Source: Actinomycetes bacterium
Lineage (GTDB): Bacteria; Actinomycetota; Acidimicrobiia; Acidimicrobiales; Ilumatobacteraceae
Assembly (NCBI GenBank): GCA_025359865.1
Contig: JANYDH010000130.1
Span: 1-54,891 of the forward strand
Length of the DNA stretch: 54,891 nt
Direction: 5' to 3'
Shown: one piece after another, positions 6,054 to 30,037 of the stretch
Numbering within the stretch: the stretch's first letter is position 1
Layout: each line of letters begins with the position of its first letter
Program-made: the position numbers and the translations under genes
Notes under the pieces: model-generated
What the model was told of the DNA's origin: nothing
The model's database searches: none
The model's input: the letters and a program-made list of their open reading frames with translations, nothing else

Positions 6054-7997
6054 CTATGACAGCGCGGCGTGAACTGCGGCGATGATGCCGTCGACATCGA
6101 GGCCGAGTTGGGTGAAGATGTCTTCGGACCGTGCCTGTGGGATGAACCTTGTTGGCACACCGAGTACATGCACGGCCGTGAGCGGGGAGATCTCATGGAC
6201 ACGATCGGCGATGCTCATGCCGATGCCACCCTCACGGATGCCGTCTTCGAGCGTGACCACGACGCGGTGGGATGCGGCGTCAGCGATCATGGTCGGATCG
6301 AGCGGAGCGCAACAGCGCACATCCCACACGGTGGCCTCGATGCCGCTGGCGATCAAATGATGGGCGGCCTTCTCGGCATTGCCGAGCATCTTGCCGATCG
6401 CGAGGATGCACACTGTTGCCGACCCGGCGACGGTACGTCTGGCCTGTAAACCGGTGCCGACGTCGTGCTCGGCGACGTTAACGGCTGTGCCTCGGGGGTA
6501 GCGAATGGCCACTGGGCCCTCGTCAGCGAGCGACATTGCATCGTGCAACATGACGTGCAGCTCTTGCGCGCTCGATGGTGCGAGCACGCGCATGCCGGGC
6601 ACCTTCGAAAGCAGCGCCATGTCGTAGACGCCGTGGTGGCTGGCTCCGTCGGGACCGGTGATGCCTGCCCGGTCGAGGCAGAAGATGACGGGCAGCCGGT
6701 GCATCGCAACGTCGTAGACCACTTGATCCCACGCCCGGTTGAGGAACGTGGAGTAGATCGCCACAATCGGTCGAAGGCCGCCCATGGCCATGCCTGCCGC
6801 ACCAGTGACTGCGTGCTGCTCGGCAATGCCGACGTCGAAGAACCGATCGGGGAACCGGGCCTGGAACGGCAGCAAGCCGGTTGGCCCGGGCATCGCTGCC
6901 GTAATGGCGACGACTCTGGTATCGGATTCCGCTTCTTTGATGATCGCATCGGCGAAGGCTTGGGTGTAGCCCGTTGGAACGGCGGGTGGCGGGCCGACGA
7001 GCGGGTCGAAGACGGGCGCGTCGTGGAGGTTCTTCTCGTCGTCGTCTTCGGCAGGCGGGTAGCCACGTCCCTTTTGCGTCAGCACGTGCACGACGATCGG
7101 CCCTTCGGCTGAAAGTTCGATTGCGTTCCGAAGGCTTTCTTCGAGCTGCTCGAGAGAATGCCCATCGACGGGACCGACGTACCGCACGCCGAGCGCTTCA
7201 AAAAACGACGGTGGCTGGAGGAATTCGCGAACCGCCGCCTTGAACGCCTCGACACCTTTCTCGGCCTGCGGCCCGAGATAGGGAAGGTCGCGAAGGAAGC
7301 TCTCGAGGCGTCGTTGCCGCCGCACGTACACCGGGTTGAGCCGGATGTTCGTCAGCGTGTGGGCGAGCTTGTCGGTGATCCGTGATGGCAAGCTGGGATG
7401 ATCGGCCATCGCCCGGTCGACCGCCCTCGGTACAACGGCTGTGAGGTTGGAGATGGTGGGCGCATACGACCGGCCGTTGTCGTTGAGCACGATGATGACC
7501 CGTTGGCCCGAGTGGCCGAGGTTGTTCAGCGCTTCATACGCCATACCGCCGGTCATTGCACCATCGCCGATCACTGCGACGATGTGACGGTGCGGGTCGG
7601 TCCCGGCATCACGCGCGATAGCGAGGCCATACGCATACGACAACACCGTGCTGGCGTGGCTGTTCTCGATGAGGTCGTGCGGGCTTTCCTCGCGATTCGG
7701 GTAGCCGGACAGACCATTCGCCTGCCGGAGATGCTCGAAGCCCGCCTGGCGCCCGGTGACGATCTTGTGCACATACGCCTGATGGCCGGTGTCCCACAGT
7801 ATTGCGTCGGTGGGAGAGTCGAACACCCGGTGCAACGCCATCGTGACTTCGACTACGCCGAGATTGCTTCCCAAGTGTCCGGCGTTCTCGGCAACGGCCT
7901 GAACGATGAAGTCGCGAATCTCGCCGGCCAGATCGTCGAGCTCTGGGTAGCTGAGCGCCCGCAGGTCGGCGGGCTGGCGGATCTGCGACAGGGACAT
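6054..7997 (-). CDS. dxs: 1-deoxy-D-xylulose-5-phosphate synthase
   Basis: Dxs is the ThDP-dependent enzyme that condenses pyruvate with glyceraldehyde-3-phosphate, the first step of the MEP isoprenoid pathway. The 647-residue length is normal for the family. The N-terminal domain has HLGSNLGVVE near residues 41-50, the ThDP/Mg motif GDGAMTGG at 144-151 and LNDNGRS from 171. The transketolase-like pyrimidine domain has GIAEQHAVTGAAGMA and LDRAGITGPDGASHHG, and a C-terminal transketolase domain follows. It is the first gene of the minus-strand run and is divergent from the SDR gene at 8085. Downstream genes are not MEP enzymes, so the operon is functionally mixed. Confidence 0.97.
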   Translation of the reverse strand: MSLSQIRQPADLRALSYPELDDLAGEIRDFIVQAVAENAGHLGSNLGVVEVTMALHRVFDSPTDAILWDTGHQAYVHKIVTGRQAGFEHLRQANGLSGYPNREESPHDLIENSHASTVLSYAYGLAIARDAGTDPHRHIVAVIGDGAMTGGMAYEALNNLGHSGQRVIIVLNDNGRSYAPTISNLTAVVPRAVDRAMADHPSLPSRITDKLAHTLTNIRLNPVYVRRQRRLESFLRDLPYLGPQAEKGVEAFKAAVREFLQPPSFFEALGVRYVGPVDGHSLEQLEESLRNAIELSAEGPIVVHVLTQKGRGYPPAEDDDEKNLHDAPVFDPLVGPPPAVPTGYTQAFADAIIKEAESDTRVVAITAAMPGPTGLLPFQARFPDRFFDVGIAEQHAVTGAAGMAMGGLRPIVAIYSTFLNRAWDQVVYDVAMHRLPVIFCLDRAGITGPDGASHHGVYDMALLSKVPGMRVLAPSSAQELHVMLHDAMSLADEGPVAIRYPRGTAVNVAEHDVGTGLQARRTVAGSATVCILAIGKMLGNAEKAAHHLIASGIEATVWDVRCCAPLDPTMIADAASHRVVVTLEDGIREGGIGMSIADRVHEISPLTAVHVLGVPTRFIPQARSEDIFTQLGLDVDGIIAAVHAALS

Positions 7998-8084
7998 GGC
8001 TGAGTCACACTACCGCTCACAGGGGACCGGTCAGGTCGTCGGCCGAGTCGCTGCTTACTCGGGTACCCAGTAGGTTCGCCGCTC

Positions 8085-8873
8085 ATGGCGATCACCAACC
8101 TTTTTGATCTCACCGACCACGTTGCCTTGATCACAGGCGGCAACGGTGGCATTGGTCTTGGCATGGCCGAGGCCCTCGCCGCTCACGGGGCGGCGGTGGC
8201 CATCTGGGGCACGAATGCCGACAAGAACGCGGCGGCACGTGATCGGCTGACGGCCTATGGCCGGCCTGTCGTCGACCTCGTGTGCGATGTCGGCGACCAC
8301 GATGCGGTGATCGCTTCGTTTGCGGCAACGGTCGAGGCACTGGGTCGCGTCGACTCGTGTTTCGTAAACGCTGGTATCGGTGGCCGAGCGCCCAGCTTTG
8401 TCGGAATGTCCGACGAGGAATGGCACCGCGTGTTGAGGGTCAACCTCGACGGCGCGTTTTACACCGCTCAGGAGGCGGTTCGGCACATGGCGGCGCGACA
8501 CGCCGGGGGCGACACGGCCGGCGGATCGGTGGTATTCATCACATCTGGCTCGGCGAAGTTCGGCCAGCAAAAGGGCCAGCACTATGGCGGGTCGAAAGGG
8601 GCCTTGATCGCGATGATGAAGGGGATCGCCGTCGAGCACGCCCGGCATGCGATCCGCTGTAACGCGATCCTGCCAGGCTGGACCGAGAGCGACATGACCG
8701 CCCCGGCGTTCGGTTGGGACAAGTTCGTCGACAACGTCATGCCTCGTGTGCCGATGCGACGTTGGGGGACGCCGGCTGACTTCGGTGGGCTGGCCGTGTA
8801 CCTGGCGAGCCGCGCGAGCAGCTATCACACCGGCGATGTGCTCACGATCGATGGCGGCTACCACAGTTTCTGA
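8085..8873 (+). CDS. short-chain dehydrogenase/reductase (SDR) family oxidoreductase
   Basis: This is a classical 262-residue SDR. The Rossmann nucleotide-binding motif TGGNGGIG lies at about 17-24, and an NAG-type motif FVNAGIGG lies mid-protein. The catalytic YxxxK is Tyr167/Lys171 in HYGGSKGAL, preceded by the Ser-containing ITSGSAKFG. The C-terminus has IDGGYHSF, as in FabG-like/gluconate dehydrogenase-like SDRs. It is probably a cytosolic NAD(P)-dependent oxidoreductase with unknown substrate. A ThDP enzyme gene follows 55 bp downstream on the same strand, so the two may work together, for example on a 2-oxo/2-hydroxy acyl substrate; that is inference. Confidence 0.88.
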   Translation: MAITNLFDLTDHVALITGGNGGIGLGMAEALAAHGAAVAIWGTNADKNAAARDRLTAYGRPVVDLVCDVGDHDAVIASFAATVEALGRVDSCFVNAGIGGRAPSFVGMSDEEWHRVLRVNLDGAFYTAQEAVRHMAARHAGGDTAGGSVVFITSGSAKFGQQKGQHYGGSKGALIAMMKGIAVEHARHAIRCNAILPGWTESDMTAPAFGWDKFVDNVMPRVPMRRWGTPADFGGLAVYLASRASSYHTGDVLTIDGGYHSF

Positions 8874-20723: not shown

Positions 20724-21131
20724 TCAGCCGGCGGCAACGGAGGGTTTGCTCGCCGGAGTGCTGCTGGCGGGCGCGCTGCTCGCGGGGGCACTCGGCGTCT
20801 CGCTCTTGCTGCTACTCGACCCGGAGGATGAGTCGCTGCTACTGCTCGAACTGGACGACGAGTCGGTGGTGCTCGTGCTGGAACTACCGGACGACTCGCC
20901 CGAGGTGGAGGTGGTACTCGGCTTGGAGGAACTGCCCGAACCGCTGCGGCTATCGGTCTTGTAGAAGCCGCCGCCTTTGAACGTGACGCCAACAGGGGTG
21001 AATACCTTCTTGACGGCCATGAGTGCGCCGCTCGATGGGTGCGCCACCTCGGTGAGTGTGTCGTCGCTGAACGATTGTTGGACCTCGACCGTCTCACCGG
21101 TCTCGACGAACTTGTATACGTACGTGGGCAT
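20724..21131 (-). CDS. FmdB family protein lacking the zinc-ribbon cysteines, with a Ser-rich tail
   Basis: The first 57 or so residues of this 135-residue protein follow the FmdB/zinc-ribbon pattern (MPTYVYKF, VQQSFSDDTLTE, KKVFTPVGVTFKGGGFYKTDSR). None of the four cysteines of the usual two CxxC knuckles is present. The metal site has therefore been lost although the flanking sequence is well conserved. A low-complexity Ser/Thr/Gly/Pro tail of about 75 residues follows. The start at 21131 is preceded by GGAG with a 5-nt gap; another ATG lies two codons upstream. It sits upstream of the SAF gene and is divergent from galU. The role of FmdB-like proteins is poorly known. Confidence 0.85.
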   Translation of the reverse strand: MPTYVYKFVETGETVEVQQSFSDDTLTEVAHPSSGALMAVKKVFTPVGVTFKGGGFYKTDSRSGSGSSSKPSTTSTSGESSGSSSTSTTDSSSSSSSSSDSSSGSSSSKSETPSAPASSAPASSTPASKPSVAAG

Positions 21132-21258
21132 CGGCACTCCAGCACTCGCGAAGGTTGTTCCACCGGCTCGATGCCTCCGTCCTGCTAGGCGGCTGGCAGT
21201 CGACCGGTTCGAGTGCTAAAGCGTAGCGCCCGATCGGTGCCGCCGTAACATCGATGCC

Positions 21259-22140
21259 ATGCGCGTCCATACCGCCGTCGTACCCGCTGCCGGCATGGGG
21301 ACCAGATTTCTGCCGGCGACGAAAGCCGTCCCGAAAGAGTTGCTGCCGATCCTCGATCAGCCGGCGTTACAGCTCATCATCGACGAAGCCGTAGGTGCTG
21401 GTGTCGACCACATCGTGATCGTCACCAGCCACACCAAACCGGCGATCGAGGCGTACTTTGCGCCCGCCCCCGACGTCATCGCCAAGCTCAGATCGTCGGG
21501 GCGCGAGGCGATGGCCGACCGGTTGCAGTCGATCGGTCGCGACGTGCAGGTCAGCTTCGCGTACCAGGATGAGGCCCGTGGACTGGGTCATGCGGTCGGT
21601 TGCGCCCGAGAGGCTGTCGGTGACGAGCCGTTTGCCGTCCTGCTTCCCGACGAGATCATGGGCTCGTCGGCATTGCTCGATCAGTTGGCGCGATTGTGCG
21701 AATCCACCGGTGGAAGCGTGGTCGGGCTGAAGCGGGTTCCCCATGACCAGGTCGGGTCCTATGGCGTGATCGACCCGGTCGGCGAGGCCGATGAGCGCGG
21801 CGTGATCGCCATCAAGGACATGGTCGAAAAGCCGAGCCCTGCTGATGCGCCCAGCAACCTCATCATCATCGGTCGCTACGTGCTCACACCGGACGTGTTC
21901 GATGAGATCGCCAAGGTGGCGCCAGGGGCGGGCGGCGAGATCCAACTCACCGATGCGCTGCGCGCGCAGGCCACCCGGAGCCCGTTCCACGGCGTCGTCA
22001 GCGACGTCACGCGCTACGACACCGGCAACCCGTTCGGCTGGCTCACGGCCGTCATCGAGATTGCGCTTGCCGATCCATCGATGGGTGCACCCCTCACCGA
22101 TTGGCTAGGTCAGCTGATGCGATGGAACAGCGTCGGGTAG
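21259..22140 (+). CDS. galU: UTP-glucose-1-phosphate uridylyltransferase
   Basis: GalU makes UDP-glucose from UTP and glucose-1-phosphate for glycan and glycolipid synthesis. The 293-residue protein starts with the nucleotidyltransferase signature PAAGMGTRFLPATKAVPKE near residues 9-27. It also has FAVLLPDEI, the GSYGVID substrate loop, MVEKPSP, and PGAGGEIQLTDAL near the C-terminus, all typical of bacterial GalU. Its 3' end overlaps the convergent glycolipid-binding-like gene by 31 bp. In many actinomycetes galU is followed by moeA (glp), rimJ/rimI and a sepX-like gene; the same set, with insertions, occurs here. Confidence 0.96.
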   Translation: MRVHTAVVPAAGMGTRFLPATKAVPKELLPILDQPALQLIIDEAVGAGVDHIVIVTSHTKPAIEAYFAPAPDVIAKLRSSGREAMADRLQSIGRDVQVSFAYQDEARGLGHAVGCAREAVGDEPFAVLLPDEIMGSSALLDQLARLCESTGGSVVGLKRVPHDQVGSYGVIDPVGEADERGVIAIKDMVEKPSPADAPSNLIIIGRYVLTPDVFDEIAKVAPGAGGEIQLTDALRAQATRSPFHGVVSDVTRYDTGNPFGWLTAVIEIALADPSMGAPLTDWLGQLMRWNSVG

Positions 22141-22673
22141 TCGAGTGGCAAGCCGAACTTGTCCACATCGAACTCCTGCGACCAACCGCTACTCAGGTGG
22201 GTGAATGCCCATCGGTGCGTATCGAGGCGGGTGTAGCGCTGGTGCTCCGGTTCGACCTGCAGGGTCTCGACGTCGATGGAAGCGACGATGATGTCGGCAG
22301 TATGACCGACGTGCAACGGTAGCCGTCGGATCGGCAGTGTTTGCGTGAACGGTGTGCAGGCCAAGTCGAGGTCGTAGCAGCCGTCGAGATCCGGCCGATG
22401 GGCACCGTTCATCTCGCCCCATCGTGCCGTGCCGTCGGTGGCCAACCACAGATCTGGTTCGTCGAGGTCTCGAAACAGCAGGAACTGGCGTACTTGCCAC
22501 GAGGCGTTGAGGCGCACCACATACTGGACGCGTTCGCGTCCGACGGTGCCCGAAGCGGTCCACCCCTCATTTTCCCAGATGATCGTAAACTGTTCCACGC
22601 CATCGCCCTGCCACGTGGACCATTGGGTTGTATACCCATCGGCGGGCAAGGCCAGATATGGCGAAGGGTTCAT
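22110..22673 (-). CDS. putative glycolipid-binding family protein
   Basis: This 187-residue, Trp-rich, beta-strand-rich protein (WQGDGVEQFTIIWENEGWTASGTV, then DLWLATDGTARW and GCYDLDLACTPFTQTLPIRRL) matches the putative glycolipid-binding family found in mycobacteria and other actinomycetes. There is no signal peptide. Function is unproven; the name comes from structural similarity in that family. The start at 22673 is chosen because the 17 residues upstream are Arg-rich and do not match. It is convergent with galU (31-bp overlap) and divergent from moeA (42-bp gap). Confidence 0.7.
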   Translation of the reverse strand: MNPSPYLALPADGYTTQWSTWQGDGVEQFTIIWENEGWTASGTVGRERVQYVVRLNASWQVRQFLLFRDLDEPDLWLATDGTARWGEMNGAHRPDLDGCYDLDLACTPFTQTLPIRRLPLHVGHTADIIVASIDVETLQVEPEHQRYTRLDTHRWAFTHLSSGWSQEFDVDKFGLPLDYPTLFHRIS

Positions 22674-22715
22674 CTCCCTACTGTGCCAGCCCGAGCGGCG
22701 GGTACGGTTGCCGGC

Positions 22716-23927
22716 GTGATTCATGAGTCAGAAGCCCGCGAATACGTGCTCGAGCGTTGCCGCGTCCTCACCGCGACCCCTACCCCGCTCTCGCTGCTGA
22801 CCGGTCTGGTGTTGGCCCAACCGGTGGCAGCTACCCAGGACGTACCACCGTTCGCCAATTCGGCTGTCGATGGGTATGCAGTTCGGTCCGTCGACGTCGC
22901 GGACGTTCCGGTTGTGCTCGACGTGATAGCCGAGCTCGCGGCCGGGGCCCATACCACGATGGTGGTGGGGCCAGGACAGGCGATTCGGATCATGACCGGT
23001 GCGCCAATGCCTGACGGTGCCGACGCGTCGGTGATGGTGGAAGACACCGAGCGGGTGGATGGTGGAATCCGCGTGCGCATCGGCCGCAGCGTGCCGTGCG
23101 GTGCAGCCGTGCGAACCGCCGGCGACGATGTGCTGGCCGGCACCGAACTGTTTCAGCCGGGTGCAGTGGTCACGCCGATGGTGGCAGGTGTGCTCGCCAG
23201 CGTCAATGCACGCCTCGTGCTGGCTGTCCCACGGCCGCGAGTGGCAGTGCTCTCCACGGGAGATGAGTTGGTCGACGATGGCTCACCGCTGCAACGTGGT
23301 CAGATCCGCGAGAGCAACAAGACGATGTTGCTCGGCATGGTGGCCGAAGCCGGCTGTGTGCCGGTGGACTTCGGTATCGTGCGCGACGACGAGACCGTGT
23401 TGGAGGCCGTGCTGCGCGATGCAGCCGAATCCTGCGACGCAGTCGTCACGAGTGGTGGGGTCAGCATGGGCGACTACGACGTGGTGAAGGCGGTGCTGGC
23501 GCGGATCGCGACCATGAGGTGGATGCAGATTGCGATCAAACCGGCCAAACCGTTTGCGTTCGGGTTGCTCGGCCCTCGGAACGTGCCCGTGTTCGGACTA
23601 CCGGGCAATCCGGTCAGTTCGATGGTCAGCTTTGAACTATTCGCCCGACCGGCCCTCAAGAAGATGGCGGGCCACACGGCGATTGATCGTCCCGTGTTGC
23701 AAGCCGTGGCTGCTCGACCCATCCAAAGGCGGCCAGACGGCAAGACTCACTACGTGCGCGTGAGCGGCGAATTCGGTGCCGATGGGCGCTATCACGTCGA
23801 CACGGTCGGAGGTCAGGGTAGCCATCAGCTCGCTGCGTCTGCTGCAGCGCAGGCGTTGGCGGTGGTTCCCGATGGCGATGGAGTAGCAGCAGATGGCACA
23901 GTTTCGGTGATGCTGCTGCGGTTGTGA
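22716..23927 (+). CDS. moeA: MoeA/Glp family protein: molybdopterin molybdenumtransferase
   Basis: MoeA inserts molybdate into adenylylated molybdopterin. This 403-residue protein has the family's domains: DVPPFANSAVDGYAVR near the N-terminus, the MoCF-like domain with VLSTGDELVDDG, RESNKTML, VTSGGVSMGDYDVV and GLPGNPVSSMVSFELF, and a C-terminal beta-barrel with THYVRV. The GTG at 22716 is the natural start. It is followed by moaA and, further on, moaC, supporting a cofactor role. It is also the gene next to galU, the position held by Glp, a MoeA paralogue that binds FtsZ in Corynebacterium. It could have either or both roles. Confidence 0.9.
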   Translation: MIHESEAREYVLERCRVLTATPTPLSLLTGLVLAQPVAATQDVPPFANSAVDGYAVRSVDVADVPVVLDVIAELAAGAHTTMVVGPGQAIRIMTGAPMPDGADASVMVEDTERVDGGIRVRIGRSVPCGAAVRTAGDDVLAGTELFQPGAVVTPMVAGVLASVNARLVLAVPRPRVAVLSTGDELVDDGSPLQRGQIRESNKTMLLGMVAEAGCVPVDFGIVRDDETVLEAVLRDAAESCDAVVTSGGVSMGDYDVVKAVLARIATMRWMQIAIKPAKPFAFGLLGPRNVPVFGLPGNPVSSMVSFELFARPALKKMAGHTAIDRPVLQAVAARPIQRRPDGKTHYVRVSGEFGADGRYHVDTVGGQGSHQLAASAAAQALAVVPDGDGVAADGTVSVMLLRL

Positions 23928-23972
23928 CCGTTCGTCATCGGCTAACCGGGCACCCAGCGGTAGGGTTGCCGG

Positions 23973-24992
23973 ATGGATTTGGTCGATCCGTTCGGACGCA
24001 CCATTCGTGACCTGCGCATCTCGGTCACCGACCGGTGCAACTTCCGCTGTACCTATTGCATGCCGGAAGAGGGGATGACCTGGTTGCCGCGGTCCGAGGT
24101 GCTCACGTTCGAAGAGTTCGAGCGCCTCGCACGAATCTTCGTCGAGCGGTTCGAGGTCGACGGCCTGCGCCTGACCGGCGGTGAGCCGACGGTCCGGGCG
24201 CACCTGCCGGTGCTGGTTCGCAAGCTCGCCGCGCTGCGGGTGCCAGCTTCGTCGTCGTCGCCGTTGGCGGGGCGCAAGCCCGACCTGTCGATCACCACCA
24301 ACGGCGCGACGTTTCGTCTGATGGCGCACGAATTGCACGAAGCCGGCATTGACCGGGTCAACATCAGTCTCGACACATTGCGAGCCGACCGGTTTCTGTC
24401 GATGACTCGCCGAGATGAACTGACCCGGGTGCTCGACGGCATCGAAGCGGCCAAAGAGGCAGGGCTCGCACCGGTCAAGATCAACGCGGTAGTCCAGCGT
24501 GGCGTCAACGACGACGAGATTGTCGATCTCGCCCGCTACGGCCGTGATCACGACGTCGAGATGCGGTTCATCGAGTTCATGCCGCTCGACGCCAGCGGTC
24601 ACTGGATGAATGATCAGGTGGTCAGCCAGGATGAGATCGTGGCTGCCATCTCGGCAGTGTTTCCGCTCGAACCGGTACCGGCCAGGGGTTCAGCGCCCGC
24701 TGACCGGTGGCGTTATCTCGATGGCGGGGGATTGGTCGGGGTCATCCCGACCGTCACAAAGCCGTTCTGCGGCGATTGCGACCGGGTTCGTCTCACGGCC
24801 GAGGGCCAGTTCCGCACCTGCTTGTTCGCCACCACCGAATTCTGTTTTCGAACGCTCATGCGCGACGGGGCTTCTGACGATGACATTGCTGTGGAGATCC
24901 AACGGGCGGTGGGCACCAAGTGGGCCGGCCACCAGATCAACCAGGTCACGTTCATTCGTCCGAACAGGTCGATGAGCCAGATCGGTGGCTAG
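23973..24992 (+). CDS. moaA: GTP 3',8-cyclase (MoaA)
   Basis: MoaA is the radical-SAM enzyme that rearranges GTP to 3',8-cyclo-GTP, the first step of molybdenum-cofactor synthesis; MoaC then makes cPMP. The 339-residue protein has the SAM-cluster motif CNFRCTYC near the N-terminus, LTGGEPTVR and NISLDTL. The second 4Fe-4S site is the C-terminal FCGDCDRVRLTAEGQFRTCLF region, split here as CxxC plus a later Cys. It ends with the functional GG tail (QIGG). An unusual Ser-rich insert (ASSSSPLAGR) lies near residues 91-100. It lies 45 bp after moeA, and its 3' end overlaps the next gene by 8 bp. Confidence 0.96.
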   Translation: MDLVDPFGRTIRDLRISVTDRCNFRCTYCMPEEGMTWLPRSEVLTFEEFERLARIFVERFEVDGLRLTGGEPTVRAHLPVLVRKLAALRVPASSSSPLAGRKPDLSITTNGATFRLMAHELHEAGIDRVNISLDTLRADRFLSMTRRDELTRVLDGIEAAKEAGLAPVKINAVVQRGVNDDEIVDLARYGRDHDVEMRFIEFMPLDASGHWMNDQVVSQDEIVAAISAVFPLEPVPARGSAPADRWRYLDGGGLVGVIPTVTKPFCGDCDRVRLTAEGQFRTCLFATTEFCFRTLMRDGASDDDIAVEIQRAVGTKWAGHQINQVTFIRPNRSMSQIGG

Positions 24993-25989
24993 ACCGCGCA
25001 GTGGAAACGTCGGTGGGTTACTGGTTGCCGGCAGCCTGGTCGTCGCTGCAGCCTGGGTCTCGGGTGCCCTTGCCGGTCCGGTCACTGTCATCGGTCCGGC
25101 GCTCGCCAGCCGAGTAGCCAACCGGATCACACCGCCGGCGCCGACCATCGGGGGGTGCGCTGTCTTTCCCGTATCCAACGCGTGGAATCAAGACGTCAGT
25201 GCCCTACCGCTGCGCGCCAACTCGACGCAGATGATCAGTGCGATCCAGGCAAGCGGCAGTGACAACCTGCATCCTGACTTTGGTGAAGACCCCACGTACG
25301 GCATCCCGTACTCGGTGGTGCCCATCGACCAGCCGTTGGTACCGGTGGTGTACGGCGACTATGCCGACGAGAGCGACCCAGGGCCGTTTCCGATTCCGTT
25401 GCTCGCCCCGGTTGAGGGCGGCGTCAATGCCGACGGCGATCGGCATGTGGTGGTCGTACAACAGGGTTCGTGTCAACTGGTCGAGTTGTACCACGCTCGG
25501 CGCACCGGCACCGGATGGTCGGCTGATTCTGGGGCGCACTGGAATTTGACCACCGGCGACCTCCGCCCAAGCGGATGGACAAGCGCCGATGCCGCCGGTT
25601 TGCCGATCTTGCCCGGACTCGTGCGATACGACGAGGTTGCTGCCGGGGTGATCCGTCACGCAATCCGGGTGACGTTCGGTTCCACGCAACGGGGGTTCGT
25701 GTTACCCGCTACGCATTTCGCGTCCTCGGATTCGAATCAAAACCTGCCGGCAATGGGGATGAGGTTGCGACTGAAGGCCGGCTACGACATCAGCGCATTC
25801 ACCGGACAGGCCCGGGTCATCGCCGTGGCGTTGCAGCACTTCGGCCTGATCGTGGCCGACAACGGCAGTAACTGGTTCTTCCAAGGCGGCACGGATCCGC
25901 GGTGGAACGATGACGACCTGAGCCAGTTGAAGGCCGTCCCCGGCACCGCGTTCGAAGTGGTCGACACGGGCCCGGTGCGAACGAGTTAG
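24985..25989 (+). CDS. secreted hypothetical protein inserted between moaA and moaC
   Basis: This 334-residue exported protein has a GTG start overlapping moaA by 8 bp. An Arg-containing N-region, a hydrophobic stretch (GGLLVAGSLVVAAAWVSGALAG) and an Ala-rich segment look like a signal sequence or membrane anchor. The mature part is Gly/Pro/Asp-rich with only two Cys (GGCAVFP and QGSCQL) that could form a disulfide. I do not recognise a catalytic motif. Similar secreted proteins of unknown function occur in other actinomycetes. Its place in the middle of the molybdenum-cofactor genes, translationally coupled to moaA, is unexplained. Confidence 0.75.
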   Translation: MARPRSGNVGGLLVAGSLVVAAAWVSGALAGPVTVIGPALASRVANRITPPAPTIGGCAVFPVSNAWNQDVSALPLRANSTQMISAIQASGSDNLHPDFGEDPTYGIPYSVVPIDQPLVPVVYGDYADESDPGPFPIPLLAPVEGGVNADGDRHVVVVQQGSCQLVELYHARRTGTGWSADSGAHWNLTTGDLRPSGWTSADAAGLPILPGLVRYDEVAAGVIRHAIRVTFGSTQRGFVLPATHFASSDSNQNLPAMGMRLRLKAGYDISAFTGQARVIAVALQHFGLIVADNGSNWFFQGGTDPRWNDDDLSQLKAVPGTAFEVVDTGPVRTS

Positions 25990-26058
25990 CGGTCGTCTGG
26001 CATACAGATCGCGATTGGCGCGCGCGGGGCGCGCGGATTCACTACGATCTCGTGACAG

Positions 26059-26622
26059 ATGAGTGACTTGTCGTTCACGCACCTCGATCCACTGGGCCGT
26101 GCCCGGATGGTCGACGTCACCCCCAAAGAACCCACCCACCGTCGCGCTGTCGCGCGGTGCAAGGTTTTCATGCGCCCTGAGACCACTGCGGCCATCGCCA
26201 ACCGCGAGGTCAACAAAGGCGATGTGCTTGCGGTGGCCCGCGTTGCCGGCATCCAGGCTGCCAAACGCACGAGCGACATGATCCCGTTGTGCCACCCGCT
26301 GCTCATCGGCGCGGTCAATCTCAACTTCGAGATCGGCGATGATTTTGTGGCGGTCGAGGCAAACGTCGACACGATCGACCGTACCGGAGTGGAAATGGAA
26401 GCCCTCCATGCATGCTCGGTCGCTGCCCTGACCATCTATGACATGTGCAAGTCGGCAGATCGTGGCATGGTCATCGGTGAACTGGCCCTGTGGGAAAAGA
26501 CCGGCGGACGGTCTGGTATCTACCGACGCGTTGCCGAGTCCGAGTCCGAGTCCGAGTCCGAGTCCGAGTCCGCGCCGGAGTCCGATGTGTCATTCTCTGT
26601 CACGAATGTAGTACAATCGTAA
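26059..26622 (+). CDS. moaC: cyclic pyranopterin monophosphate synthase (MoaC)
   Basis: MoaC converts MoaA's 3',8-cyclo-GTP to cyclic pyranopterin monophosphate. The 187-residue protein carries the active-site motifs KRTSDMIPLCHPL near residues 72-84, TGVEMEALHACSVAALTIYDMCK, and a final EKTGGRSG. After the normal family end it has an extra tail of about 30 residues beginning with repeated Ser-Glu dipeptides, encoded by six perfect GAGTCC hexamers. Such an acidic tail is not part of the MoaC catalytic domain. It is separated from moaA by one secreted-protein gene and followed at 53 bp by the SepX/GlpR-like gene. Confidence 0.94.
   Translation: MSDLSFTHLDPLGRARMVDVTPKEPTHRRAVARCKVFMRPETTAAIANREVNKGDVLAVARVAGIQAAKRTSDMIPLCHPLLIGAVNLNFEIGDDFVAVEANVDTIDRTGVEMEALHACSVAALTIYDMCKSADRGMVIGELALWEKTGGRSGIYRRVAESESESESESESAPESDVSFSVTNVVQS
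26536..26571 (+). repeat. (GAGTCC)6 hexanucleotide microsatellite in moaC
   Basis: Six perfect copies of GAGTCC encode repeated Glu-Ser at the end of MoaC, with a seventh copy at 26578-26583 after an interruption. Six-base units keep the reading frame, so length changes would only vary the acidic tail. Confidence 0.95.
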
Positions 26623-26675
26623 TGAAGGCCAACATGCTCATCCATTCGTCTCGCGAACTCAGGAACAGGTAGCCA

Positions 26676-27272
26676 GTGGGAAAGATCGTTCTTCTAGCCG
26701 TCGCTGCTGCGTGGGCGGCCGTGTTGCTGCCGCCGTTGTTGCGCAACCGGATGGTCAACCGTCCGGGATCATCGGTCACCGATTTCCGTCGGCAACTCTC
26801 CACGTTGCAGCGCGCGGTTCCTACCCGCAGCATCACCCCGATGCGCTCGATGGCCCGCCCGCTTACACCATCACCATTGCAGAAGCCGGCAGTGCAGCAC
26901 CGGTCGAGCCACATGCCACGTGCTCACCAATCGGCTGAGCACGGTTATGAGCGCCAACACCACACTGGTGAGCTTGCCCGCCGTTCGCCGCGAGATCACA
27001 CCCAGCCCATGCACCGCCAGGTGCATCTGCAGAGTCGTCAGGTCGGTCACCGCGAGATCATTCGCCGTCGGCGTACCAACGTGCTGTTCGTGCTGGTCAT
27101 GGCCAATGTGCTCACGCTGTTCCTGGCCGCTACCACCAAGGCGCACGGGTTCGTCTACGGCTTCGCTCTGGCCTTCGTCTCGTTGTGCGGCTACTGCTAC
27201 AAGCTGGCCCAGTTGCGCCAGTACGAGCAAGACAGCCAGTACAGCGAAGCAAACTGGTTCAACGCCGCCTGA
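26676..27272 (+). CDS. membrane protein resembling actinobacterial SepX/GlpR
   Basis: This 198-residue protein has an N-terminal membrane helix (residues about 3-22, KIVLLAVAAAWAAVLLPPLL). A Pro/His/Arg-rich cytosolic loop follows, with SVTDFRRQLSTLQR near 33-46. Two further hydrophobic segments lie near 135-152 and 158-175, and the tail is polar. The arrangement and the WAAVLLPPLLR / FRRQL pattern resemble SepX of Streptomyces and GlpR, the membrane receptor of Glp in Corynebacterium. Both act in cell division and lie near galU-moeA. Identity as a true orthologue is not proven. The start is the GTG at 26676. It precedes tRNA-Ala. Confidence 0.65.
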   Translation: MGKIVLLAVAAAWAAVLLPPLLRNRMVNRPGSSVTDFRRQLSTLQRAVPTRSITPMRSMARPLTPSPLQKPAVQHRSSHMPRAHQSAEHGYERQHHTGELARRSPRDHTQPMHRQVHLQSRQVGHREIIRRRRTNVLFVLVMANVLTLFLAATTKAHGFVYGFALAFVSLCGYCYKLAQLRQYEQDSQYSEANWFNAA

Positions 27273-27317
27273 CCTTGTCCACCGCAACCTTGACCGCGGC
27301 TACCTTGTCCGCCGCTA
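27273..27317 (+). repeat. 15-bp tandem repeat (x3) overlapping the predicted tRNA promoter
   Basis: Three imperfect 15-bp units starting ACCTTG lie at 27273-27287, 27288-27302 and 27303-27317, filling the gap after the SepX-like stop. Each unit contains a TTGTCC or TTGACC box resembling a -35 hexamer. TACACT at 27317-27322 is a plausible -10, about 14 bp before the tRNA. The best -35/-10 spacing is 20 bp, longer than ideal, so the promoter call is tentative; the repeat itself is plain. Confidence 0.7.
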
Positions 27318-27335
27318 CACTGCGGAAGCCAATCG

Positions 27336-27408
27336 GGGGGTGTAGCTCAGTTGGCAGAGCGCAACAATCGCACTGTTGAGGCCAAGGGTTCAATTCCCTT
27401 CACCTCCA
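27336..27408 (+). tRNA. tRNA-Ala (anticodon CGC)
   Basis: The 73-nt sequence folds into a full cloverleaf. The acceptor stem GGGGGTG/CACCTCC contains the G3.U70 pair that marks alanine tRNAs. The D-stem is GCTC/GAGC, the anticodon stem CAACA/TGTTG has the loop ATCGCAC (anticodon CGC at 27369-27371, reading GCG), and the T-arm is AAGGG-TTCAATT-CCCTT. The discriminator base is A; the 3' CCA is not encoded. Confidence 0.95.
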
Positions 27409-27425
27409 CCCGAAAACGCCAGGTC

Positions 27426-27577: not shown

Positions 27578-30037
27578 GTGTCGACAGCAGTGACGGTTCC
27601 CGCAAGGGCGCGGGTGGTCGTGATCGGTGGCGGGGTGATTGGCTGTTCGGTCGCCTATCACCTCGCGCACATGGGCTGGCGCGACGTGGTCTTGGTCGAG
27701 CGCGATCAGTTGACGTCGGGCACGACCTGGCATGCGGCCGGGCTGATGGTCACGTTCGGTTCGACGTCGGAAACGTCGACGGAGATGCGTACGTACACGC
27801 GTGATCTGTATGCCGGGTTGGAAGCTGAGACCGGGCTGGCGACTGGATTCAAACCAGTCGGCTTCATCGAACTCGCCACCGAACCCGACCGGTTGGAGGA
27901 GTACCGACGAGTGTCGGCCTTTAACCGGTACTGCGGGGTCGACGTGCACGAGATCTCGGCTCGCGAGGTCGCCGAGTTGTTCCCTCTGGCGCGTACTGAC
28001 GACGTGCTGGCCGGGTTCTATGTAGCTGAAGACGGACGGGTCAACCCGGTCGATGTGACGATGTCGCTCGCGAAAGGTGCCCGCCTGCAGGGCGCAACGA
28101 TTCTGCAAGGGGTGACGGTCACCGATGTCACGTCGCGCCATGGCGCAGTGCACAGCGTTGTCACCGACCACGGCACGATCGAGGCGGAATACGTCGTCAA
28201 CTGTGCGGGCATGTGGGCACGTCAACTGGGGGCTCTGTCGGGGGTGAACATCGCGTTGCAGGCCGCTGAGCACTATTACTTGATCACCGAGCAGATAGAG
28301 GGGATGAACGGTTCATGGCCGGTGATCGAGGACCCTGCGAACTACGGGTACTACCGCGAGGAGGTCGGTGGGCTGATGATCGGCCTGTTCGAAACGGTCT
28401 GCGCGCCATGGAACGTGGGCGGTATCCCGAACGACGTTTCGTTTGCATCGTTGCCTCCCGATTGGGACCGAATGGGGCCATACGTCGAGCGGGCCATGAG
28501 CCGTGTGCCGATCTCGGCCGATACAGGTATACGCACGTTCTTCTGCGGTCCGGAGAGCTTCACCCCGGATCTCGCGCCGGTGGTGGGTGAGGCACCCGAA
28601 CTACGTAACTACTTCGTTGCGGCAGGTCTCAACTCGGTCGGTATTCTCACCGGCGGTGGCCTCGGCCGTGTGATCGCACACTGGATCACCACCGGGCAAC
28701 CCGATGTGGATGTCACCGGATTCAACATCGATCGGTTCCACCCGTACCAGTCGAACCCCGACTATCGCCGTACTCGCACGGTCGAGTCGCTCGGCATGGT
28801 GTACCAATGCCACTACCCGAATCGCTCGATGCAGACCGCCCGCGGTGCCAAGGTGTCGCCCGTGCACCATCGTCTTGCCGCCCAGGGTGCCTACTTCAAA
28901 GACGTCAGTGGATGGGAGGGTGCCGACTGGTTCGCCGGCACCGGGCAACAGCCTGAGCCCGGCCCGCTCACATGGGGTCGTCCGTCGTGGTGGGCGAAAT
29001 GGCAGGCAGAACACCACGCTTGTCGTACCGGGGTCGTCGTGATGGACATGTCGTTCATGTCGAAGTTCCGCGTGCAGGGCCGTGATGCCGGACCGCTGCT
29101 CGAGCACCTGTCGGCCAACTCGGTCGACGGAACAGCGGGCACCATCACCTACACCCAGTGGCTCAACACCGACGGACGGCTCGAGGCCGATCTCACCGTG
29201 ACGAAGTTGGATGACGGCGAGTTCTTCGTGGTCGCCACCGACACCGCGCATCGGCACGTCCAGACCCTCCTCCGCCGAAGCGCTGCCGATCGGCACGCCT
29301 TCGTCACCGACGTCACGTCAGGCTTTGCTCAGCTCAATCTGCAGGGGCCACGGTCGCGTGATGTGCTGCAGGCACTCACCACGGTCGATCTTTCGAATGT
29401 CGCGTTCCCGTTCAGGACTGCACGCGAGATCGACGTCGGCTTCGCCCGAGTGCTGTGTACCCGCATCACCTACCTCGGCGAGTTGGGCTACGAGCTGTTC
29501 GTTCCCTCTGAACAGGCCATGCACGTCTACGACCGACTGGTCGAGGGTGGAGCACCGCTCGGATTGCGTCACGCCGGGTTGAAGGCACTATCGAGCCTGC
29601 GGATGGAGAAGGGCTACCGCGACTATGGCCACGACATCGACAACACCGATGGTGTGCTCGAGGCGGGCTTGGGGTTTGCCGTTGCGCTCGACAAGCCCGG
29701 GGGATTCGTCGGCCGTGACGCGGTGGCGGCGCAGAAAGCCGCCGGGCCGCTCACGCGTCGCCTCGTGCAGGTGCAGGTGACCGACCCCGCCCCGCTGATG
29801 TTCCATGCCGAGGTCGTCCGCCGCAACGGCATGGTCGTCGGCTACATCCGCGCCGCGTCGTATGGCCACACGCTTGGTGGCGCAGTCGGGTTGGCGATGA
29901 TCGAGGCCGGGGTGCCGATCACAGCGCAGTACTTTTCGGAGGCGTCGTGGACGGTCGAGATCGCCGGTCATGAGTATCCGGCCATAGCCTCGATCTCGCC
30001 CCTCTATGACCCGCGCAATGAGCGGATCAGACTGTGA
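27578..30037 (+). CDS. FAD-dependent dimethylglycine/sarcosine dehydrogenase-like protein
   Basis: This 819-residue two-domain enzyme has an N-terminal DAO-type FAD domain with IGGGVIGCSVAYHL near residues 16-29. It also carries SGTTWHAAGL with His52, the position that covalently binds FAD in sarcosine and dimethylglycine dehydrogenases. A GcvT-like C-terminal half with the barrel domain follows (ITYLGELGYELFVP, RMEKGYRDYGHDI), which passes the released C1 unit to tetrahydrofolate. The length equals DMGDH/SARDH. GTG at 27578 is preceded by GGAGG with a 7-nt gap. It is followed by a class V aminotransferase, and together they suggest use of N-methylated glycine derivatives. Confidence 0.9.
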   Translation: MSTAVTVPARARVVVIGGGVIGCSVAYHLAHMGWRDVVLVERDQLTSGTTWHAAGLMVTFGSTSETSTEMRTYTRDLYAGLEAETGLATGFKPVGFIELATEPDRLEEYRRVSAFNRYCGVDVHEISAREVAELFPLARTDDVLAGFYVAEDGRVNPVDVTMSLAKGARLQGATILQGVTVTDVTSRHGAVHSVVTDHGTIEAEYVVNCAGMWARQLGALSGVNIALQAAEHYYLITEQIEGMNGSWPVIEDPANYGYYREEVGGLMIGLFETVCAPWNVGGIPNDVSFASLPPDWDRMGPYVERAMSRVPISADTGIRTFFCGPESFTPDLAPVVGEAPELRNYFVAAGLNSVGILTGGGLGRVIAHWITTGQPDVDVTGFNIDRFHPYQSNPDYRRTRTVESLGMVYQCHYPNRSMQTARGAKVSPVHHRLAAQGAYFKDVSGWEGADWFAGTGQQPEPGPLTWGRPSWWAKWQAEHHACRTGVVVMDMSFMSKFRVQGRDAGPLLEHLSANSVDGTAGTITYTQWLNTDGRLEADLTVTKLDDGEFFVVATDTAHRHVQTLLRRSAADRHAFVTDVTSGFAQLNLQGPRSRDVLQALTTVDLSNVAFPFRTAREIDVGFARVLCTRITYLGELGYELFVPSEQAMHVYDRLVEGGAPLGLRHAGLKALSSLRMEKGYRDYGHDIDNTDGVLEAGLGFAVALDKPGGFVGRDAVAAQKAAGPLTRRLVQVQVTDPAPLMFHAEVVRRNGMVVGYIRAASYGHTLGGAVGLAMIEAGVPITAQYFSEASWTVEIAGHEYPAIASISPLYDPRNERIRL

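Follow-up and report, generated by a model that had tools for sequence, protein, structure and literature searches.

The galU-moeA-SepX/GlpR locus is known from Corynebacterium and Streptomyces. In the main text of PMC10522489, Glp of Corynebacterium glutamicum is described with an FtsZ-binding pocket composed of V338, L343, L360, M361, Y369, L370 and F414; a PxP motif in hinge 2 is given there as part of the Glp signature, and the cytosolic regions of C. glutamicum GlpR are reported to have isoelectric points (pI) of 4.05 (first) and 10.87 (second). That main text contains no word beginning with Acidimicrobi. The SepX paper reports that 673 genomes were searched, and SepX-like relatives from Acidimicrobiia may already lie within that published survey.

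We describe here a locus of this type in a member of the Acidimicrobiia (Acidimicrobiales, Ilumatobacteraceae). The DNA analysed is contig JANYDH010000130.1 of assembly GCA_025359865.1, 54,891 nucleotides long and hereafter called the window, and it is part of a 5.0 Mb draft genome that is 96.6% complete. A divergent relative of the SepX/GlpR kind is encoded downstream of moeA. We consider it probable that the single MoeA is a cofactor enzyme, that the SepX-like product is a division-type membrane protein independent of MoeA, and that Glp arose later, in another lineage. A preliminary description of this DNA had proposed that one MoeA serves both cofactor synthesis and the divisome. This is not supported, because the window MoeA has only one of the seven FtsZ-pocket residues and falls outside the Glp clade, and because 28 of 35 genomes of the class with no detected MoeA carry the SepX-like gene.

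Properties of the MoeA protein

MoeA_N has a single match in the draft genome, so that the paralogue count called for in the preliminary description comes to one MoeA. Two further PF00994 matches lie in frames without MoeA_N and by their size are presumably CinA- and MoaB-like. Among 61 genomes (this one and 60 relatives), 56 have one MoeA above the cut-off, and in a sample of 248 genomes of the class, each at least 92% complete, a MoeA match is present in 213, with two or three matches in 16 of these.

The protein was compared with Escherichia coli MoeA at 13 positions, comprising those with solved mutants (59, 100, 137, 142, 188, 228, 279, 350 and 371) and the further positions 259, 275, 298 and 301. 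Twelve of the 13 are retained, the exception being K275, which is replaced by Q, as in 21 of the 23 rows of the order. At the 11 positions that remain when 275 and 279 are set aside, the window MoeA keeps 11, against 9 or 10 in each of five Glp sequences; all 11 are kept by 36 of 41 locus-linked non-Glp MoeAs and by 22 of 45 unlinked ones. Identity to the seven FtsZ-pocket residues is one of seven in the window protein and six or seven in the five Glp sequences, with at most three in the 41 linked MoeAs and at most four in the 45 unlinked ones. The hinge-2 PxP is found in all five Glp sequences, in 20 of the 41 locus-linked non-Glp MoeAs (the window protein among them) and in four of the 45 unlinked ones, and hinge 2 is therefore not diagnostic of Glp; this part of the Glp signature appears to be either older than Glp or recurrent. 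Hinge 1 does not align cleanly.

In direct comparison the window MoeA matches E. coli MoeA at 4.5e-70 and C. glutamicum Glp 8bve at 1.8e-42, and is thus nearer to the former; one mycobacterial-like MoeA matches C. glutamicum Glp at 9.3e-158 ('mycobacterial-like' and 'Streptomyces-like' are labels that we assign from sequence). A tree of 92 MoeAs was built using 27 of the 46 loci of the class; from the 74 other loci, 15 that were near-duplicates or partial were removed by hand. The window MoeA belongs to a set of 23 rows, 22 from the order plus one from elsewhere in the class, with support of 98, starred; a 26-row set of the class has support of 92, not starred, and one long-branched row of the order (L091) falls outside it. 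C. glutamicum Glp groups with four mycobacterial-like proteins in a long-stemmed set (support 100, starred), itself within a different 13-row set (98, starred), which also contains second, unlinked mycobacterial-like copies and a Streptomyces-like galU-linked copy. Forcing the Acidimicrobiia and Glp into one clade is rejected in an approximately unbiased (AU) test, after removal of six long-branch rows (p-AU 0.020), a value to be read with caution, since the groups were defined only once the first tree was known, one of the branches concerned is long, and the tree searches were quick. The phylogeny proposed in the preliminary description thus places this MoeA with the Acidimicrobiia and away from Glp. 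It groups with catalytically intact MoeAs, one of two outcomes named there as speaking against its proposal; the other, a second glp elsewhere, was not found in this genome. A set uniting the galU-linked MoeAs has support of 81 and includes unlinked MoeAs as well, and suggests a common descent of the galU-linked proteins. Pocket, clade and active site together rule out the assignment of the window MoeA as a Glp. The genomic neighbours of Glp, galU and SepX/GlpR, are both present around its gene.

The window MoeA scores below the cut-off with the NCBIfam Glp model NF045515 (374.2 bits, cut-off 475), with PRK10680 (355.3, cut-off 440) and with MoeA_actino (329.2, cut-off 560), and since it passes no MoeA subfamily cut-off we class it as canonical-type by domains and residues only. 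The Glp model also calls for care as a label: a Streptomyces-like, galU-linked MoeA (L111, positions 6997-8214 of the turned locus) reaches 567 bits with it, although none of the 11 catalytic residues checked is changed in it and its FtsZ loop is shortened. An AlphaFold2 monomer of the window MoeA (predicted local distance difference test score, pLDDT, 91.9) superimposes on the plant Mo-insertase Cnx1E with a TM-score of 0.91 and a root-mean-square deviation of 2.5, on E. coli MoeA chains with TM-scores of 0.73-0.86 and on Glp with 0.70-0.76. Given the range for E. coli MoeA and the closeness of the VIA-align Z values (see below), the conformation of the predicted monomer is weak evidence and not diagnostic.

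The genome has five PF02738 and ten PF00384 matches, from which Mo-insertase activity of the window MoeA would be expected; the protein would insert molybdate into molybdopterin in the pathway begun by the neighboring MoaA and MoaC. PF02738 was matched, weakly, in one of seven MoeA-less genomes. In 23 MoeA-less genomes the PF00384 matches number one or two apiece and are confined to a single open frame, presumably NuoG. MoeA goes with molybdoenzymes. FtsZ is present in all 12 genomes checked and DivIVA-type proteins in all eight, a MoeA-less genome (G057) included. The FtsZ tail DDDFDVPSFLK is present and is alike in the 12 genomes, one of them without MoeA, and so does not discriminate.

The SepX/GlpR-like membrane protein

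Hydropathy of the window protein indicates three membrane helices and cytosolic regions. In 21 Acidimicrobiia sequences the W of the N-terminal helix is invariant, as is an F; the sequences also share a cytosolic stretch that varies, a pair of R residues (one invariant, one nearly so), two helices and a nearly invariant Y; because the SepX-like sequences were chosen by position and by membrane and motif pattern, these features offer no independent support. Such support comes from the controlled profile comparison, the tRNA and the NCBIfam match. Comparison by hhalign with eight SepX/GlpR-type proteins from outside the class gives a probability of 97.5, an E-value of 6.8e-12 and a score of 83.5; the controls stay far lower, with a maximum of 14.8 over 40 column shuffles and 20.9 for the reversed control. 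When 11 proteins from additional families beyond the class are used instead, the probability is 99.4 and the E-value 1.2e-21. NF050099 (SepX_GlpR_2), the best of the NCBIfam SepX_GlpR models, matches at an E-value of 4.3e-9 and 36.7 bits, below its cut-off of 150, and tRNA-Ala(CGC) is present in 33 of 35 chosen loci across the phylum. The SepX/GlpR-like nature noted in the preliminary description is therefore upheld, and the protein is a divergent relative of SepX/GlpR outside the four named subfamilies.

The first cytosolic region of the window protein has a pI of 12.0 and the second a pI of 4.7. First-region values are 8.8-12.0 in 27 of 30 proteins measured and 4.1-5.0 in three mycobacterial-like GlpR proteins; the window protein does not fit GlpR of the Corynebacteriales in the strict sense, with its acidic first region. 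In this sample an acidic first region and the FtsZ pocket co-occur.

The protein would begin with a membrane helix and continue with a basic segment in the cytosol, a further two helices and a short tail. Its most likely place of action is the site of division or growth, with no need for MoeA.

We note separately that similar C-terminal tails (RSAN, VIAN, RAANE, RAAGQ) are seen in L094, L095, L098, L100, L108, L111 and L116 and could be a short binding motif. As a family motif the tail was rejected: after removal of L127 as a false pick it holds in 25 of 58 sequences, by a pattern written after the tails had been seen, and is absent from the window protein, which ends FNAA. The variants include RRSAN in several Acidimicrobiales, RAANE in Streptomyces-like and PRAAGQ in mycobacterial-like proteins.

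Distribution of the SepX-like gene relative to MoeA

Among the 248 genomes of the class, 203 have both MoeA and the SepX-like gene, 28 the SepX-like gene alone, 10 MoeA alone and seven neither. The SepX-like gene is thus found in 28 of the 35 genomes without detected MoeA and in 203 of the 213 with it; 15 of the 35 were derived by comparing two match tables, and the number agrees. The 28 MoeA-less carriers span eight families, and in all 11 stronger loci chosen from MoeA-less genomes the SepX-like gene encodes a W-bearing first helix. Sixteen MoeA-less genomes were read in context, four of which (G021, G030, G037 and G043) are 84-92% complete: 14 have a full-length SepX-like gene, one is cut by a contig end (G030) and one is doubtful (G021; L292, a weak match of 70 aa with one helix). 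Since the SepX-like gene is kept in most MoeA-less genomes, moeA and the SepX-like gene look like old neighbors rather than a demonstrated partnership of enzyme and divisome. Several genomes with MoeA elsewhere, listed below, in which the SepX-like gene has kept its place by galU or moaC speak for the same reading.

These counts bear on the idea of a bifunctional MoeA, a single enzyme that makes the cofactor and, like gephyrin, binds the SepX-like protein or FtsZ. The one copy found, its retained catalytic residues, the long-kept neighborhood and the enrichment of the hinge-2 PxP in locus-linked over unlinked MoeAs, with the window protein among its carriers, are all compatible with it, but we regard it as unlikely given the poor pocket identity of the window protein and of the 41 locus-linked MoeAs, the many MoeA-less genomes with a SepX-like gene, and a first cytosolic region that is basic, not acidic.

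A different possibility is that the small membrane protein is a partner of cofactor synthesis, for instance of MoaC, and took up a division role in other lineages only. Where MoeA lies elsewhere, the SepX-like gene is still found with galU and moaC in G039, G046, G050 and G055, and with moaA and moaC in G051 and, by a weak match, G129. Moreover, moaC lies beside the SepX-like gene in four of the 11 chosen MoeA-less genomes (L326, L327, L333 and L334; three of family f89 and one of f19) and in G037 (L286, 84% complete). However, MoeA-less loci L285, L287, L324, L325 and L328-L332 keep the SepX-like gene with no moaC in the 7-13 kb read, and we doubt this explanation about as strongly as the bifunctional one. 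Of the four chosen genomes with moaC, the one checked for PF02738, that of L326 (G204), has no match.

Organization and conservation of the locus

The features of the locus are as follows.

20724..21137, minus strand: FmdB-type zinc-ribbon gene, which bounds the conserved locus upstream (TIGR02605 21.6 bits, below cut-off 31.3)
21259..22140, plus strand: galU, UTP-glucose-1-phosphate uridylyltransferase (PF00483 1.3e-26; TIGR01099 291.6 bits, below cut-off 326.8)
22110..22724, minus strand: putative glycolipid-binding protein gene, antisense between galU and moeA (PF06475 1.4e-38)
22719..23927, plus strand: moeA, canonical type, presumed GTG start (PF03453, PF00994, PF03454)
23973..24992, plus strand: moaA, GTP 3',8-cyclase (TIGR02666 367.2 bits, above cut-off 284.05)
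24985..25989, plus strand: family-less gene for a probably exported protein (N-terminal hydrophobic segment)
26059..26622, plus strand: moaC, cyclic pyranopterin monophosphate synthase (PF01967 6.9e-54; TIGR00581 201.1 bits, above cut-off 141.5)
26676..27272, plus strand: sepX/glpR-like membrane protein gene, 198 aa (hhalign; NF050099)
26676..26747, plus strand: sepX/glpR-like membrane helix 1, residues 1-24, conserved W and P..R (hydropathy, alignment)
26748..27071, plus strand: sepX/glpR-like basic cytosolic region, like intrinsically disordered region 1 (IDR1-like), net charge +15, pI 12.0 (charge/pI calculation)
27072..27200, plus strand: sepX/glpR-like membrane helices 2 and 3, residues 133-175 (hydropathy)
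27336..27410, plus strand: tRNA-Ala (CGC), syntenic anchor 3' of the sepX/glpR-like gene (ARAGORN)

The analysis bears out the whole set of genes in the preliminary description (galU, moeA, moaA, a secreted protein, moaC, a membrane protein and tRNA-Ala), which had left out the minus-strand glycolipid-binding gene at 22110-22724. The genes from moeA to the membrane protein gene lie on the same strand, no more than about 70 bases apart, and the 3' end of moaA overlaps the exported-protein gene, so that moeA, moaA, the exported-protein gene, moaC and the membrane protein gene are likely a single transcript. The exported protein has no Pfam or NCBIfam family match and is 61-73% identical to its counterparts in nine relatives; its AlphaFold2 model is poor (mean pLDDT 48). 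Two further observations by the way are repeated GAGTCC units near the 3' end of moaC (about 26533-26572, by eye), which encode (SE)n and may vary in length, and, beyond the tRNA, a protein encoded at 27578-30037 that combines an FAD oxidoreductase (DAO) domain with an aminomethyltransferase (GCV_T) domain.

Conservation was assessed in the best 80 loci retrieved by MoeA, all from close relatives, which include Ilumatobacter nonamiensis and Desertimonas flava (both Acidimicrobiia, Acidimicrobiales, Ilumatobacteraceae); 52 have at least 4.5 kb downstream and 54 have 4.5 kb upstream. moaA lies downstream of moeA in all 52, and the order moeA-moaA-moaC-SepX-like gene is kept in 47 of them and is therefore not due to chance. 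tRNA-Ala(CGC) follows the SepX-like gene in 37 of the 52 and the exported-protein gene occupies this position in nine. Upstream, galU is present in 48 of 54 and the glycolipid-binding gene in 54 of 54, and 38 of 46 loci of the class have an FmdB-like match. Beyond the class, galU and moeA occur with a SepX/GlpR-like gene, and often with moaC, in the Streptomyces-like and mycobacterial-like families and in several more of the phylum; other families carry MoeA without this galU-SepX/GlpR setting. In Streptomyces-like loci L111-L113 moaC is likewise downstream of moeA. The comparison over class and phylum agrees with the earlier view that this is the locus of Corynebacterium and Streptomyces. The accompanying claim that moaA, a secreted protein and moaC had been inserted between moeA and the receptor-like gene stands for the exported-protein gene alone; for moaA and moaC it is ruled out by their positions in the relatives and, for moaC, in L111-L113. 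The locus is real and old, and best read as of an ancestral type galU-moeA-moaC-sepX-tRNA-Ala(CGC) in an acidimicrobiian.

An old gene order need not have functional meaning, and the membrane protein could simply hitch-hike with an unrelated housekeeping role, much as galU, FmdB and tRNA-Ala(CGC) are conserved here without an evident tie to division. Its homology to two independently studied division proteins (PMC8748795, PMC10522489) makes this the least probable of the explanations that we have considered.

Discussion

The reading that we favor, a cofactor-making MoeA beside a SepX-like division-type protein that is independent of it, has to be set against several observations that weigh the other way. 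The SepX-like gene is rarer in genomes without MoeA (Fisher p 0.004), 19 of the 28 MoeA-less carriers belong to one family, and some of their matches are weak, down to about 1e-5. The proximity of the SepX-like gene to moeA in 47 of 52 relatives could mean a link. As to the MoeA itself, it has the hinge-2 motif VPRPR, a Glp signature in the literature; it scores higher with the Glp model (374) than with the E. coli MoeA model (355), both below cut-off; and VIA-align Z values, with Cnx1E first (39.5), rank Glp 8bve (38.3) over E. coli MoeA (37.3).

Gephyrin is an animal enzyme of cofactor synthesis that also binds receptors. A bacterial counterpart, in which the acidimicrobiian MoeA makes the cofactor but also binds, at the membrane, the SepX/GlpR-like protein, before any duplication and as the source of the FtsZ-binding Glp, is a scheme that we think improbable. 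The suggestion that the locus represents a stage before the split of the two roles holds in a weak sense, in that an ancestral-type locus would fit the tree and the residues; its dual-role form is unsupported. With the favored reading, corynebacterial Glp would have come later and in another lineage, the MoeA of the locus gaining the FtsZ pocket and losing catalytic residues, and the SepX/GlpR receptor family may have existed before its ligand Glp. A SepX/GlpR relative that is present across Acidimicrobiia and further lineages of the phylum, where MoeA is intact or undetected, is a candidate for the partner to which Glp may later have been fitted, and the order in which receptor and Glp arose becomes testable.

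Three described systems offer comparisons. With Glp of C. glutamicum (8bve/8bvf; NF045515) the window MoeA shares the MoeA fold, galU upstream, a SepX/GlpR-like gene downstream and the hinge-2 PxP, but unlike Glp it keeps D228, D259 and K279 and has one of the seven pocket residues; it is also the sole MoeA found, does not fall in the Glp clade and scores 374 bits where 475 are needed. With canonical MoeA (E. coli 1g8l; PRK10680) and plant Cnx1E it has in common the MoeA domains, 12 of the 13 residues and the predicted fold, and it differs from canonical MoeA in the K275 to Q change and in scoring 355 bits with the E. coli-type model, which requires 440. Compared with SepX of Streptomyces and GlpR of Corynebacterium (NF045516, NF050099-NF050101), the membrane protein is shorter (198 aa), with a basic first region, a second region of only 23 aa and 36.7 bits against a cut-off of 150, although it has the same three membrane helices with a cytosolic region between, the same conserved W and P..R start, and the same position ahead of tRNA-Ala(CGC).

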